From: Deltaproteobacteria bacterium
GTDB taxonomy: Bacteria > Myxococcota_A > UBA9042 > DTJE01 > S145-11
DNA length: 49,649 nt
Direction: 5' to 3'
Assembly: GCA_015493765.1 (NCBI GenBank)
Contig: WGCQ01000071.1
Location: forward strand, 1 to 49,649
The notes under the pieces were generated by a model that did no database searches, had not been told where the DNA came from, and saw only the letters and a program-made list of their open reading frames with translations. Positions within the stretch are counted from its first letter, which is position 1, and each line of letters opens with the position of its first letter. Both the position numbers and the translations under genes were made by a program. Of this stretch, positions 11,403 to 48,018 are shown in pieces.

Positions 11403-11466
11403 CTCATGCCTCCATACAAAGGCTCAGGTTACTTTAAAATGTATTTGCTGTCAATGTGTGTGGGAT

Positions 11467-11644
11467 CCCAAATTACCTGACTAAATTCGGAAGTCGTACG
11501 CCGCAAGCGGGCCATCTACTTTGTCGTTTGCACCCATTTGATGCTCAATGTGGCTCTACCACACCTGCGCTCAAACAGGCTTAACCCACTGTATCTGCAC
11601 CACTTTCTGCAACCTTTGTCCTGAAATTTGACATGCAATTTGGG
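11467..11644 (+). repeat. MITE-like element copy M1 (178 bp, terminal inverted repeats)
   Basis: CCCAAATTACCTGACTAAATTCGG ... GAAATTTGACATGCAATTTGGG; roughly 85% identical by eye to 47792-47966. Confidence 0.75.
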
Positions 11645-11708
11645 ATTTGGGATACAGGTATTGACAATCGGGTTTGGTACGTTTATTATTGCCTGGTCTT
11701 TGGTTCGT

Positions 11709-23202: not shown

Positions 23203-24729
23203 TCAGATTCCTATCCGTTGGGCCGTGTTAAGGTGATGCATGGACAACAGTATCGATCGTGCCAGCATTACTGCGGTCTGCTCGCCGGAAGCCGGGGCAG
23301 GTGCATGCCTGAGCGCACGCCTGGCCCCCTGGTAATTACCCATCATGGCGCGGGCCACAGCCAGCCATGCCCACCCAACCTGCAAGTGAGGGGCATGCCT
23401 GGTCACGGGTTCGACCACTGAGGCCGCTGCCTTGTAGCGTTTTGTGCGTACGTACAACTCGGCCAGGCCCAGCCGTGCACCCATGCTTTGTGGGAAGTAA
23501 CGTATTTCCTGTTGCAGGATGGTTTCAGAGGACCCCCATTGGGTCGTCCTCAGTGCGGTCAAGCCGCCGAACACCACTGCCAGTAATACGGCCAACACAT
23601 TTACCACTCCCCTTGCATCCATACGCAAGGCAATCCTGCGCATGCCTGCCACCAGCACCAGCAAGGCGCCGGCCAAGGGTATGTACAGGAAACGCTCGGC
23701 CATGGCATCAAAAAACGGCACCACATGGCTGACAGGGAACAGCCCCAGCAGGAAAATAACCAGTCCGATGAACAGTATGCGCGCACGCCTGGCCGACAGG
23801 ACTAAACCCAATACAAACGCCAATAGAAGGATAATCCCTGCAATGACCTCGGGGTCAGCAACGCTGCGAGGTATGCCCAGTATCCACCAGTCATAAAACG
23901 GAGTCAGGGGCCAGGGAATGAGGACCAGACGTACGTACCTGTAAAATATCTTGAGTCCTGTCAATGCCTTGGTGCCAGTACTCATACCGGCAAAGAAATC
24001 GTACATGCCGTGGCTGCTCACGGTCAGGTGGGCAATACCGTATGCAGCCACAAGTATTACACCAGGCAGGTACCCGCGCAGTAAAACCCGCTTTGACAGC
24101 CTGTGCATGATGATGTCCAGGGCCGGTATGATCAACACGAATGCACCGGCCGTCTCCTTTGATAAAAGTCCCAGCAACAGCAACACCGCCGCCAGTATCC
24201 CCCGGCCGGTTCCGTATTCCCCCGGCCGCAGGTGGATATAAAGTGCCCAGAAACCGAACAGGCCGGCCATGAGCGTGGTCCTGTAACAGATGACGTTCAC
24301 CGCCTCCGTATGCACCGGATGCAGCCCGAACAGCACGGCCAGGGCCAGGGCTGACAAAGGTGAAAGCCCCAGCCTGACCGCCAGCAACGCCAGCAGGAAT
24401 ACCATGGCCGCGTGCCACAGTATGCTGTCCAGGTGAAATACCCAGGCCCTGCCGTGGCCCAGGGCGTAATCGATCGCAAAGGATGTTTCGGCCAGTGGCC
24501 GCCAGTATGGCCTGTTCTGGCGTGCCCCGGTTGTGTAACTCGTGCCCGCGGACCAGGGTTTGGTAAAAAACTGCGGCAGGTTGCTCAGCGAGCGGATTGC
24601 CTGGTTGTCCTTGATCAGGTAACCGTCGTCCCATTCAAACCCATGCCACAACGCAGGCGAATATACAACGGTTGTTATGATTGCCGCAATGAGTCCTGCC
24701 CGTACAGGTGTGAGACGCACATTCACCAT
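23203..24729 (-). CDS. TMTC-like / GT39-like multi-TM protein with C-terminal TPR-like segment
   Basis: WHGFEWDDGYLIKDNQAIRSL, RPYWRPLAETSFAIDYALGHGRAWVFHLDSILWHAA, LFGLHPVHTEAVNVICYR are TMTC/DUF1736-like motifs. Confidence 0.78.
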   Translation of the reverse strand: MVNVRLTPVRAGLIAAIITTVVYSPALWHGFEWDDGYLIKDNQAIRSLSNLPQFFTKPWSAGTSYTTGARQNRPYWRPLAETSFAIDYALGHGRAWVFHLDSILWHAAMVFLLALLAVRLGLSPLSALALAVLFGLHPVHTEAVNVICYRTTLMAGLFGFWALYIHLRPGEYGTGRGILAAVLLLLGLLSKETAGAFVLIIPALDIIMHRLSKRVLLRGYLPGVILVAAYGIAHLTVSSHGMYDFFAGMSTGTKALTGLKIFYRYVRLVLIPWPLTPFYDWWILGIPRSVADPEVIAGIILLLAFVLGLVLSARRARILFIGLVIFLLGLFPVSHVVPFFDAMAERFLYIPLAGALLVLVAGMRRIALRMDARGVVNVLAVLLAVVFGGLTALRTTQWGSSETILQQEIRYFPQSMGARLGLAELYVRTKRYKAAASVVEPVTRHAPHLQVGWAWLAVARAMMGNYQGARRALRHAPAPASGEQTAVMLARSILLSMHHLNTAQRIGI

Positions 24730-24776
24730 GAAAATTTAGACGTTCCTGTGATCCATGTCAATCTAAAATGGTGAGC

Positions 24777-24800
24777 CCCGAATTACCTGACTAAATTCGG
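24777..24800 (+). repeat. Truncated left end of MITE-like element (M6)
   Basis: CCCGAATTACCTGACTAAATTCGG, followed 14 bp later by a short GGCCGTTGACCGCGGACGTGACCGTGG stretch. Confidence 0.6.
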
Positions 24801-24862
24801 CAGTCTGGTAAGCCGTGGCCGTTGACCGCGGACGTGACCGTGGCAGGCTTACTGGTCAGTCC

Positions 24863-38207: not shown

Positions 38208-41033
38208 ATGAAACGCCTTGGTTTGTATGCTTTGTCCTTGATTTTTGTCGTGTTTTTTGCCTGCGGCGGGGAGTTGCCCGTGTCAGGGGACCTGGTGGTG
38301 GATACGGTGCTGGATCACAGCAAGGTCATTGCCGGGGGGACGACGCACGTGAAATGCGTGGTTCATGATGTTTACGGGAACCAGGCAAACGCGCCCACGG
38401 ACGTGGTGTTCCAGACGCCAAAGGGTGTGGATGCCCCTGACGTGGACAAGGGCGCCTTTGTGTTGACCAAAAGCGGGATCTACCACGTGGCATGCAGGCT
38501 GAAGGACACGAAGACCACGGACGACAGCCCTGCGGAGTTGACAGTGCTGGCAGGGCCACCGGTAAAGACCGTGACAATCGTGGACCCGGACCATGTGAAG
38601 GCCGGGGAAGCGGCAACGGCAAGGTGCACGGCGCTGGACAAGTACAATAACCCGGTGATGGATGCAAAGGTGGTACTGGACCCTGTGAAAAACCTGGACA
38701 TAGAGGGGATGCAGGTGAAATCCAAGGTCCCGGGCAAGTACGAAATCGGCTGCTCCGTGCAGGGGACAAAGATAGAGGACAAAACCACCGACACATTAAC
38801 GGTGAGCGCCGGCAAGCCCGTACGCGTGAAACTTACGGCCAAACCAATGAAAAAGGTATATAACGTACATAACAAGGTGACATTGACATACACGGTCTAT
38901 GACGCGTTCAACAACGTGGTGCCGGGGATACACGGCGAAATCACGGCGCCGGCCAAGGACATAAAAGCCCTGGGAAAGGACCAGTACCAGTTCATGGCGG
39001 AGGGTACGTTCAAATTCACGGTCACACTGGAGGACCCGTACTCGGAGGTCAGTGACTCCCTGACCTTGATTTGCGATATGGGACCCCCTGTCATCACGAT
39101 TACGAACCCGGACCGTGGCATGACGTTCATGGGAAAGGCGTCGTTGGACGTGCAGGGGACGGTGACGGATGCAGGAGCGGGCGTGAAGTGGGTCAGGGTC
39201 AACGGCAATGACGTGAGCCTGGACGAAAAAGGCGCTTTCGATTACGTGATCCAATCCGTGCATGGCCTGAATCCGATCCTGGTACAGGCCATGGACAAAG
39301 TGGGTAACAAGGCCAAGGTGACCCGCGGGTACTATTATTCAACGGATTACATACCATACGCGAACAACACCAAGATCGATGACGTGGTGCTCAGCGACGG
39401 GGGAATGCTGTACATGGGGCAAAAGGCCCTGGATGACGGCAACCACGACCCGTCGCACATCAACGACCTGGCCACGATCGTGGAGGTCTTGCTGGCAAAT
39501 ATCGACTACGGCCAGTTGCTGGGGCAGTTGCCGCCCATGCGGTACACGATACCCAATGTGATCAACTTCACGGTTCCGGGATTGAACCTGGCCGGGGTAA
39601 AGGTGGGCGTGACTGGTGACCTCACGCTGGAGGCAAAGGTCACGAACATCGTGTTCGGCCAGCCCCACGTAAGCCTGCAACTGGAGGACGGCGGCATCAA
39701 CAGTGAGATCACCTTGCAGCCGGTCAGCGTCTCCCTGGAGATTACCGCAACGATTACAAACGGTTATGCCGGTCTGCAGGTGGGCGGCAAACAGGTCTGG
39801 GGCGTCGGTCTGGAGCCCAGCGGCACCACACAGGGGTCTGCCACGATTGGAAAACTGCTGGTGGACACCGATGTCATGATTTCAAAGCAGCCATCCGATC
39901 CCAAGACCAAATTCGAGATGAAGAACTTCCACGTGGAGACCCAGGACATCGACATCCAACCGATCACGTCGTTTGTGATCGACCTGGGCACGCTGAAAAT
40001 ACCGCCTCCGGTGGACAAACTGGTCGGCACCAACACGTTGCAACTGGGCCAGGTTGACCTGACAAAATACGTGGGTGGACTGAGCAAACTGATTGCTGAC
40101 AAGGTGATCAATCCCCTGTTGAACAGCCAACTTACCAAGGCCCTATCGAAATTCATGGAGCCGCTGGTGGCAAAGGTGATGACCCTGGCATTCGGAAAAC
40201 TGATCAACATGCTGGTGCTGGACAAGACCTTTGACCTGCCACTGGGGCCGTTGGGTAAGCTGCCGCTGCATATCAAAACCAGCCTGTCAACCGTGGAATT
40301 TACGAAGATTGCCGCGACTATTGGCCTGAATATCGGGACGCTCACCAAGAAGAATGTCAAGCGTGACCCGTTGGGTTCGATTTTGCGTGACGGGTGCCTG
40401 AGTCGCGAAGGTGAGGCACCGTTCAAGTTCCACAAGGACCCGTCGATCCAGTTGGGTGGACGCTATGACTTCATCAACGAGGTGATATTTACGGCCTGGT
40501 GGAGCGGTATGCTGAACCAGACGTTCGACCTGGGCAAACTGGGCGGTGGTGGCAACAGCGGCAAGGGCATGAGCCTGGACGGCACGGTGATTACGCCCAA
40601 TTTCCTGCTGCCGCCTATCCTGGACGATTGCAATCCCGACGGGGCTCAGGAAATCCAGGTCGGCGACCTGTATCTGGACCTGAAACTGGACATCAACGGG
40701 TTCAAGCCCCACGTGGGCATGTGGGTGCAGGCCAAGGCGGATGCAGAGATCGCGGCGCATGGCAACGAGATCGGCATCAAGATCAACAAGATTACGTATA
40801 TTGAAACCGAGATCTTTGACCTGGGCGGCCTGGGGCCGTTCAAGGGCATCCTGGATTCACTGGTCCCCATGCTGAAGAGCCAGATCCAGGGCAAAGAATT
40901 CACGTTCCCGATTCCGCCGATAGACCTGGGCAGCATGATTCCAGGCCTGCCGCCAGGCAGCAAATTGCAACTGGGCAACATGACATCCTATCACGAACAC
41001 GGATTTGGCACCGTGGGCGGCGATTTACAGTAA
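38208..41033 (+). CDS. Large lipoprotein: N-terminal Ig-like domains plus a possible TULIP-like C-terminal region
   Basis: MKRLGLYALSLIFVVFFACGGELP lipobox, SD TGGAGG upstream; repeated xAGxxxxxxCTxxDxYxNP domains; C-terminal amphipathic repeats (fold is inference). Confidence 0.72.
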   Translation: MKRLGLYALSLIFVVFFACGGELPVSGDLVVDTVLDHSKVIAGGTTHVKCVVHDVYGNQANAPTDVVFQTPKGVDAPDVDKGAFVLTKSGIYHVACRLKDTKTTDDSPAELTVLAGPPVKTVTIVDPDHVKAGEAATARCTALDKYNNPVMDAKVVLDPVKNLDIEGMQVKSKVPGKYEIGCSVQGTKIEDKTTDTLTVSAGKPVRVKLTAKPMKKVYNVHNKVTLTYTVYDAFNNVVPGIHGEITAPAKDIKALGKDQYQFMAEGTFKFTVTLEDPYSEVSDSLTLICDMGPPVITITNPDRGMTFMGKASLDVQGTVTDAGAGVKWVRVNGNDVSLDEKGAFDYVIQSVHGLNPILVQAMDKVGNKAKVTRGYYYSTDYIPYANNTKIDDVVLSDGGMLYMGQKALDDGNHDPSHINDLATIVEVLLANIDYGQLLGQLPPMRYTIPNVINFTVPGLNLAGVKVGVTGDLTLEAKVTNIVFGQPHVSLQLEDGGINSEITLQPVSVSLEITATITNGYAGLQVGGKQVWGVGLEPSGTTQGSATIGKLLVDTDVMISKQPSDPKTKFEMKNFHVETQDIDIQPITSFVIDLGTLKIPPPVDKLVGTNTLQLGQVDLTKYVGGLSKLIADKVINPLLNSQLTKALSKFMEPLVAKVMTLAFGKLINMLVLDKTFDLPLGPLGKLPLHIKTSLSTVEFTKIAATIGLNIGTLTKKNVKRDPLGSILRDGCLSREGEAPFKFHKDPSIQLGGRYDFINEVIFTAWWSGMLNQTFDLGKLGGGGNSGKGMSLDGTVITPNFLLPPILDDCNPDGAQEIQVGDLYLDLKLDINGFKPHVGMWVQAKADAEIAAHGNEIGIKINKITYIETEIFDLGGLGPFKGILDSLVPMLKSQIQGKEFTFPIPPIDLGSMIPGLPPGSKLQLGNMTSYHEHGFGTVGGDLQ

Positions 41034-47723: not shown

Positions 47724-47791
47724 GGTTCCTCCCTGTTGTCTGGCAATTAGTCTAACACAATTGATGTGGTTTAACAACTAAACGAAGTTAC

Positions 47792-47966
47792 CCCAAATTA
47801 CCTGACTAAATTCGGGAGTCGTACGCCGCAAGCGGCTAACCTACTTTGTCGTTTGCACCCATGTATGCTCAGTGGCCCTACCACACCTGCGCTCAAATTG
47901 GCTTAACGCCTTGCACCTGGACCACTTTCAGCGTCCTTTGTACTCAAATTTGACAGGTAATTTGGG
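47792..47966 (+). repeat. MITE-like element copy M2 (175 bp, terminal inverted repeats)
   Basis: CCCAAATTACCTGACTAAATTCGGGAGTCGTACGCCGCAAGCGG...CTCAAATTTGACAGGTAATTTGGG. Confidence 0.8.
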
Positions 47967-48018
47967 ATCCCGGATCCAGGTTGAGTATCCGGAAAAAATG
48001 TATTAACCTGGGTTAGCA

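Follow-up and report, generated by a model that had tools for sequence, protein, structure and literature searches.

Ends of a mobile, non-coding repeat family lie 14-15 bp upstream of predicted -35 hexamers in a draft bacterial genome

Three similar intergenic sequences in this stretch of DNA raise the question of what they are and why they lie where they do. The window, by which we mean the whole stretch analysed (49,649 nucleotides), is contig C71 of a draft genome of 3.57 Mb in 279 contigs, which is 97% complete and is the sole genome of its own family among the relatives compared. The best matches to its GlyQ protein, at 73-78% identity, come from metagenome genomes of Myxococcota and 'Deltaproteobacteria', and this protein comparison would place the host in or close to Myxococcota, in a lineage with no cultured members. 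The sequence-only reading had described three near full-length copies of a MITE-like family that have both ends in common and lie before glyQ and tRNA-Val, upstream of tadA, and between divergent genes at 47.8 kb. The copies are real: they align end to end with a mean column identity of 83% between unrelated flanks (Table 1), have CCCAAATTACCTG in common at both ends, and stand in the contexts described, with glyQ identified by PF02091 and the tadA-like gene as a deaminase by PF14437/PF00383. More members of the family are present in the window than had been described, namely two solo ends and one mini-element.

Table 1 Features of the repeat family and adjoining predicted promoters. Positions without a prefix are those of the window; d, distance in bp from terminal repeat to -35-like hexamer.
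Feature	Location	Strand	Remarks
MITE copy, 175 bp	47792..47966	+	between divergent genes; predicted promoters 14 bp off both ends; no target duplication visible
Left terminal repeat CCCAAATTACCTGACTAAATTCGGG	47792..47816	+	25 bp, near-palindromic
Right terminal repeat CCCAAATTACCTGTCAAATTTGAGT	47942..47966	-	
Predicted promoter, leftward gene	47749..47777	-	consensus match, score 8.3; -35 TTGTTA 47772-47777, 17-bp spacer, -10 TAGACT 47749-47754; 14 bp from element
Predicted promoter, deoxynucleoside kinase gene (dNK family)	47981..48009	+	score 6.7, weak; -35 TTGAGT 47981-47986, -10 TAACCT 48004-48009; 14 bp from element
MITE copy, 178 bp	11467..11644	+	between glyQ promoter (d = 12) and tRNA-Val promoter (d = 16)
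Predicted glyQ promoter	11426..11454	-	-35 TTGACA 11449-11454, -10 TAACCT 11426-11431, score 11.9
Predicted tRNA-Val promoter	11661..11689	+	-35 TTGACA 11661-11666, -10 TATTAT 11684-11689, score 15.2
MITE copy, 165 bp	35637..35801	-	exact 5-bp duplication TTTAA; d = 14 to tadA-like promoter
Predicted tadA-like gene promoter	35594..35622	-	-35 TTGAAA 35617-35622, -10 TAAAGG 35594-35599, score 7.4
Mini-element, 37 bp	36560..36596	.	two ends fused, no interior; d = 9 to leftward promoter
Solo terminal repeat (CCCGAATTACCTGACTAAATTCGGC)	24777..24801	+	d = 15 to TTGACA 24756-24761, leftward gene 23203-24729
Solo terminal repeat	38113..38137	-	upstream of gene at 38208; adjoined by a second, degenerate end at 38138-38149
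Other mini-elements	L072:4323-4364; L060:8970-9010; L095:7558-7623; L088:15906-15971; L073:5986-6051		
Subfamily copies, 222-224 bp	L060:12692-12915; L076:17597-17821; L095:13245-13467		
GGACTCGTAATAAATCAAAA repeat	L087:4240-4360; L132:1-184; L088:2100-2260; L133:7550-7600		

A genome-wide search for the end brought up many further copies beyond the three first noted, with 640 sites for CCCAAATTACCTGWC at up to 2 mismatches versus 6 for the reversed pattern as control; the family is therefore not a product of chance. The element is about 178 bp long and far too short to encode a transposase, and carries terminal inverted repeats that are perfect over 13 bp and imperfect over about 25 bp. Inward of the common CCCAAATTACCTG the ends diverge (left CCCAAATTACCTGACTAAATTCGGG, right CCCAAATTACCTGTCAAATTTGAGG), and the 25-bp end is near-palindromic in itself. 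Counts from nhmmer were merged per element, because the palindromic element is otherwise counted twice. At least 40 copies span most or all of the element in a genome search in which the best 40 of 466 candidates were scored. Pairwise identities among the aligned full-length copies run from 72 to 99% with a median of 83%, and the copies are thus of various ages. Paired ends lie mainly 171-178 bp apart, with variants of 37-72 bp and 202-322 bp, partial copies grade in series from the full element to the solo end, and within the sample solo ends are more numerous than paired elements. Most ends are intergenic.

Several variants were observed within the family. Mini-elements of 37-72 bp have both ends and little or no interior, and several of them adjoin promoters; a subfamily of 222-224 bp is lengthened by about 45-50 bp of inserted sequence behind the left end (TGAAACTTCGCCTGACGGCTCGTTGTCACGGCCTGCGGCCTTAGG). 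The terminal repeat occurs in CCTG and CCGG versions (alignment A2, columns 12 and 168) that are mostly matched within one element, as if both ends of an element change together. Other repeats lie nearby. A second, GC-rich family (GGCCGTTGACCGTGGCC-type) of about 300-450 bp has a very high copy number (up to ~125 overlapping matches in 1.1 Mb), is often found at contig ends (for example L068:200-600) and nested with the MITE, and occurs in the window at 48650-49100 and 32400-33200. A third repeat (GGACTCGTAATAAATCAAAA...) is sometimes joined directly to the same terminal repeat and is perhaps a MITE subfamily or a sister element. At 49153-49647 the minus strand of the window holds a glycine-rich, low-complexity ORF (GGxGG repeats) that runs off the window end.

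Target-site duplications (TSDs), which the sequence-only reading had proposed to look for, are present and exact, at 4-7 bp, in 22 elements, 14 of them with 5 bp. In a smaller set, in which many elements entered the count once for each orientation, 5-bp duplications numbered 20 versus an expectation of 0.36 from re-pairing. One copy (C192:594-771, TSD ATATA) splits an IS4-family transposase gene; removal of this copy and one duplicate yields a single ORF, the match of the NCBIfam profile crosses the junction, and the joined flanks represent, judged by homology, an empty site. Given these duplications and this occupied and empty junction, the element is mobile DNA, and the MITE-like character first proposed is borne out by its short length, terminal inverted repeats, TSDs and copy number: the repeats of the window are copies of a non-autonomous DNA transposon (MITE) of high copy number. 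By comparison with other genomes, the family appears restricted to its lineage. The 25-bp end pattern was not matched exactly in any of the 84,980 species of genome_contigs (from which the source genome itself may be excluded), and the 15-bp end gave only stray single sites with one mismatch in 52 relatives, never repeated. At 15 of 16 glyQ loci of relatives the end is absent, and one match with up to 3 mismatches was found in a Nitrospirae MAG (L185).

The copies had been called mostly promoter-proximal, which understates their placement: ends stand at a fixed 14-15 bp upstream of sigma70-type -35 hexamers of predicted promoters. Promoters here are consensus predictions from a generic sigma70 matrix, genes were called with a simple coding-score caller, and d is the number of bp that separate the terminal repeat, at its outer edge, from the first base of the -35-like hexamer. 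We sampled 1.62 Mb of the genome, of which 0.75 Mb are contigs picked regardless of hits; another part was picked for having hits, and the unselected part gave the same result. Among the 123 promoter-facing ends of the first sample, d was exactly 14 or 15 in 52, and 40 contigs outside the discovery set replicated this (15 of 31); over the combined sample the ratio is 77/171. Simulated even insertion placed 20% of ends at 4-20 bp versus 80% observed (first sample). A test free of the matrix, using TTGACA with up to 1 mismatch, found 54 of 230 start-facing ends at the spacing versus 3.2 expected (binomial p ~1e-48). Seen from the promoters, 56 of 141 strong predicted ones in the unselected contigs (40%) are preceded by an end at no more than 100 bp, and for 27 of these the distance is 14-15 bp. 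This spacing puts the end at roughly position -50. Only its length is constant, with no conserved bases seen in the spacer between end and -35, and the outward -35 and -10 hexamers both lie in unique flanking DNA. Inspection of the minor distances by eye gave no helical periodicity clear enough to claim.

We consider that transposition of this MITE is aimed at promoters and that its end may afterwards have been retained as part of the promoter, and we give this reading a probability of roughly 0.6. Several observations favour aimed integration. The crowding of ends at 4-20 bp exceeds what even insertion would give, and the spacer bases vary. Copies with the 14-15 bp spacing include TSD-bearing ones (8 of 22 elements), and the peak at 14-15 bp is sharpest for the most consensus-like copies. 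Where ends abut, the gaps are mostly 3-8 bp and chiefly 4-6 bp, the gap in four cases is an exact copy of the newer element's TSD, and the intact copy is on the promoter side; the same insertion point was therefore used twice. Core promoters with and without an element have similar scores, with no weakening beside the element, and 20 downstream genes form a functional mixture (GTPase Der, PanD, a lipoyl-synthase-like enzyme, a kinase, a transporter and others). Under this reading, the transposase would have been guided to its position either by RNA polymerase sitting on the promoter, through direct contact, or by the -35 region, through recognition, making staggered cuts ~12 bp upstream of the -35, and reuse of the same point would have stacked new copies between the old end and the promoter.

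What happens after insertion is suggested by weaker evidence. The distal part may decay while the promoter-side end is often kept, and this end may now contribute to promoter function, either as an upstream site or by binding a protein. Truncated copies retain the start-facing end at 26:10, solo ends face the start at 34:17 and partial copies at 14:2; in solo ends about 20-32 bp survive, and the sequence past them is random. In intact copies the gene-facing end is better conserved only as a trend (16:7, p = 0.09). Such retention is weaker evidence for later use of the end, because deletions that have to spare the promoter would also tend to spare the near end. Some observations count against targeting. 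A sizeable share of copies lies away from recognisable promoters, some of them within genes and others directed at 3' ends, and among in-gene copies, for which selection at a promoter is unlikely, only one has a TTGACA at 14 bp. At several divergent promoter pairs, including the one around the window copy at 47792-47966, both distances are 14-15 bp and no TSD is seen, which targeting alone does not easily predict, and the failure to find a transposase with these ends also weighs against this explanation.

Alternatively, insertion could have been unbiased; a host activator, or else a domesticated transposase, would bind the end, and selection could have kept only the copies at the right distance and helix face (-50 to -75, as for a class I activator), the MITE having thereby spread an operator over hundreds of promoters. 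The near-palindromic end, the preferential retention of the gene-facing end, the solo ends with nothing kept beyond them and the divergent pairs spaced alike on both sides would all fit an operator. We nevertheless regard this as somewhat unlikely, as recent TSD-bearing copies are already spaced, harmless insertions farther upstream, which unbiased insertion should leave, are rare, core promoters with the end are not weaker, the downstream genes have no regulon theme, and no degenerate or graded motif was seen in element-free promoters. Aimed integration and selection on unbiased insertions may also both act. The terminal repeat could instead be an ancient promoter element of the lineage, from two of which, with a spacer, the MITE was later built; the excess of solo over paired ends in the sample and the end at 40% of strong predicted promoters in unselected contigs point that way. 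An ancient element is nonetheless improbable in view of a motif that is either nearly intact or absent with nothing between, of the series of partial copies, and of the 25-bp pattern that occurs in no other species of genome_contigs and the 15-bp end that is repeated in none of the 52 relatives.

A structured RNA or an attenuator conserved at orthologous sites, which the sequence-only reading had named among the findings that would overturn its proposal, could account for a long fold-back over the entire element, in which compensatory changes affect both partners of 14 of 41 predicted pairs in one sequence or more, in some pairs in 9-17 of 32 sequences, and position 12/168 within the terminal repeat is one of the pairs affected. 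Copying between arms or matched progenitors may explain the matched arms as well, which are no proof of a functional RNA. The copies lie upstream and not downstream of adjoining promoters, they inserted with target duplication, the window has no Rfam match besides tRNAs, and glyQ loci of Myxococcota-type relatives are without the element, all of which makes an RNA very improbable. That an ordinary MITE simply piled up in intergenic DNA as in-gene insertions were lost agrees with the intergenic position of the majority of ends; short of a general failure of the promoter predictions, it leaves the spacing precision of one to two bases unexplained, and we give it hardly any credence.

IS4, IS1634 and IS1380 form a group of DDE insertion sequences that make 5-6 bp duplications. 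This length fits the present family, and the genome has IS1634-family and IS4-family transposase genes, but none in the genome is flanked by a pair of MITE ends. Among six transposase Pfam families searched genome-wide, PF01609 had four matches and PF00872 one, while PF13701 (IS1380-type), PF00665, PF13586 and PF01610 had no match in the genome; none of these five places in the 279-contig draft lies between a pair of ends, and none is on the window's contig. Three candidates for an autonomous parent were rejected: end pairs 0.7-2.7 kb apart enclose host genes, the IS1634-family ORF on C12 lies at the edge of its contig and has a single, poor match to the MITE end, 400 bp upstream of it, and the IS4-family ORF on C192 is the victim of insertion and not between matching ends. 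The autonomous partner may be extinct in this genome.

Ty1 and Ty3 integrate at a set distance from RNA polymerase III promoters through contact with the transcription machinery, and offer an analogy for the mechanism proposed here, although they are yeast retrotransposons with no homology to this MITE, for which we only infer machinery contact. Known prokaryotic MITEs such as Correia/NEMIS are short and non-coding, have terminal inverted repeats, TSDs and high copy number, and often lie upstream of genes and alter their expression (PMC10969869). The present family is likewise short and non-coding, with terminal inverted repeats, TSDs and many copies; whereas Correia elements contain promoters themselves, or an IHF site (PMC10969869), the promoter here is in host DNA at a fixed distance and not within the element. 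In Caenorhabditis, expansion of the CERP2/CELE2 MITEs, with HIM-17, seeded promoter elements at about one-third of germline-specific promoters, and truncated copies remain (PMC9757741). That case is similar in the spread of a MITE to many gene promoters with truncated copies persisting, but is eukaryotic and has promoters made from the MITE, whereas here the core promoter is outside the element. Searches confined to open-access text brought up no bacterial MITE described as keeping a fixed spacing to a -35 hexamer.

A fuller account can be put forward tentatively, as one that may well fail in part: that this is a promoter-tethered transposon family of near-nucleotide precision, that its ends afterwards stayed on as upstream components of promoters, and that one invasion re-equipped between a fifth (fixed spacing) and two-fifths (any nearby end) of strong promoters. 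Yeast has transposons that find promoters by way of the transcription machinery, and nematodes have promoter networks built from MITEs; if true, a bacterial case with a 14-15 bp spacing would join targeting of the one type to networks of the other. It would also give a natural system for promoter-targeted insertion, and would make testable whether one MITE burst can rewire the promoters of a bacterial genome. Solo ends of such elements resemble the operator sites of a global regulator, which is a warning for the reading of similar motifs. For the host itself, the MITE may have altered the control of many genes.
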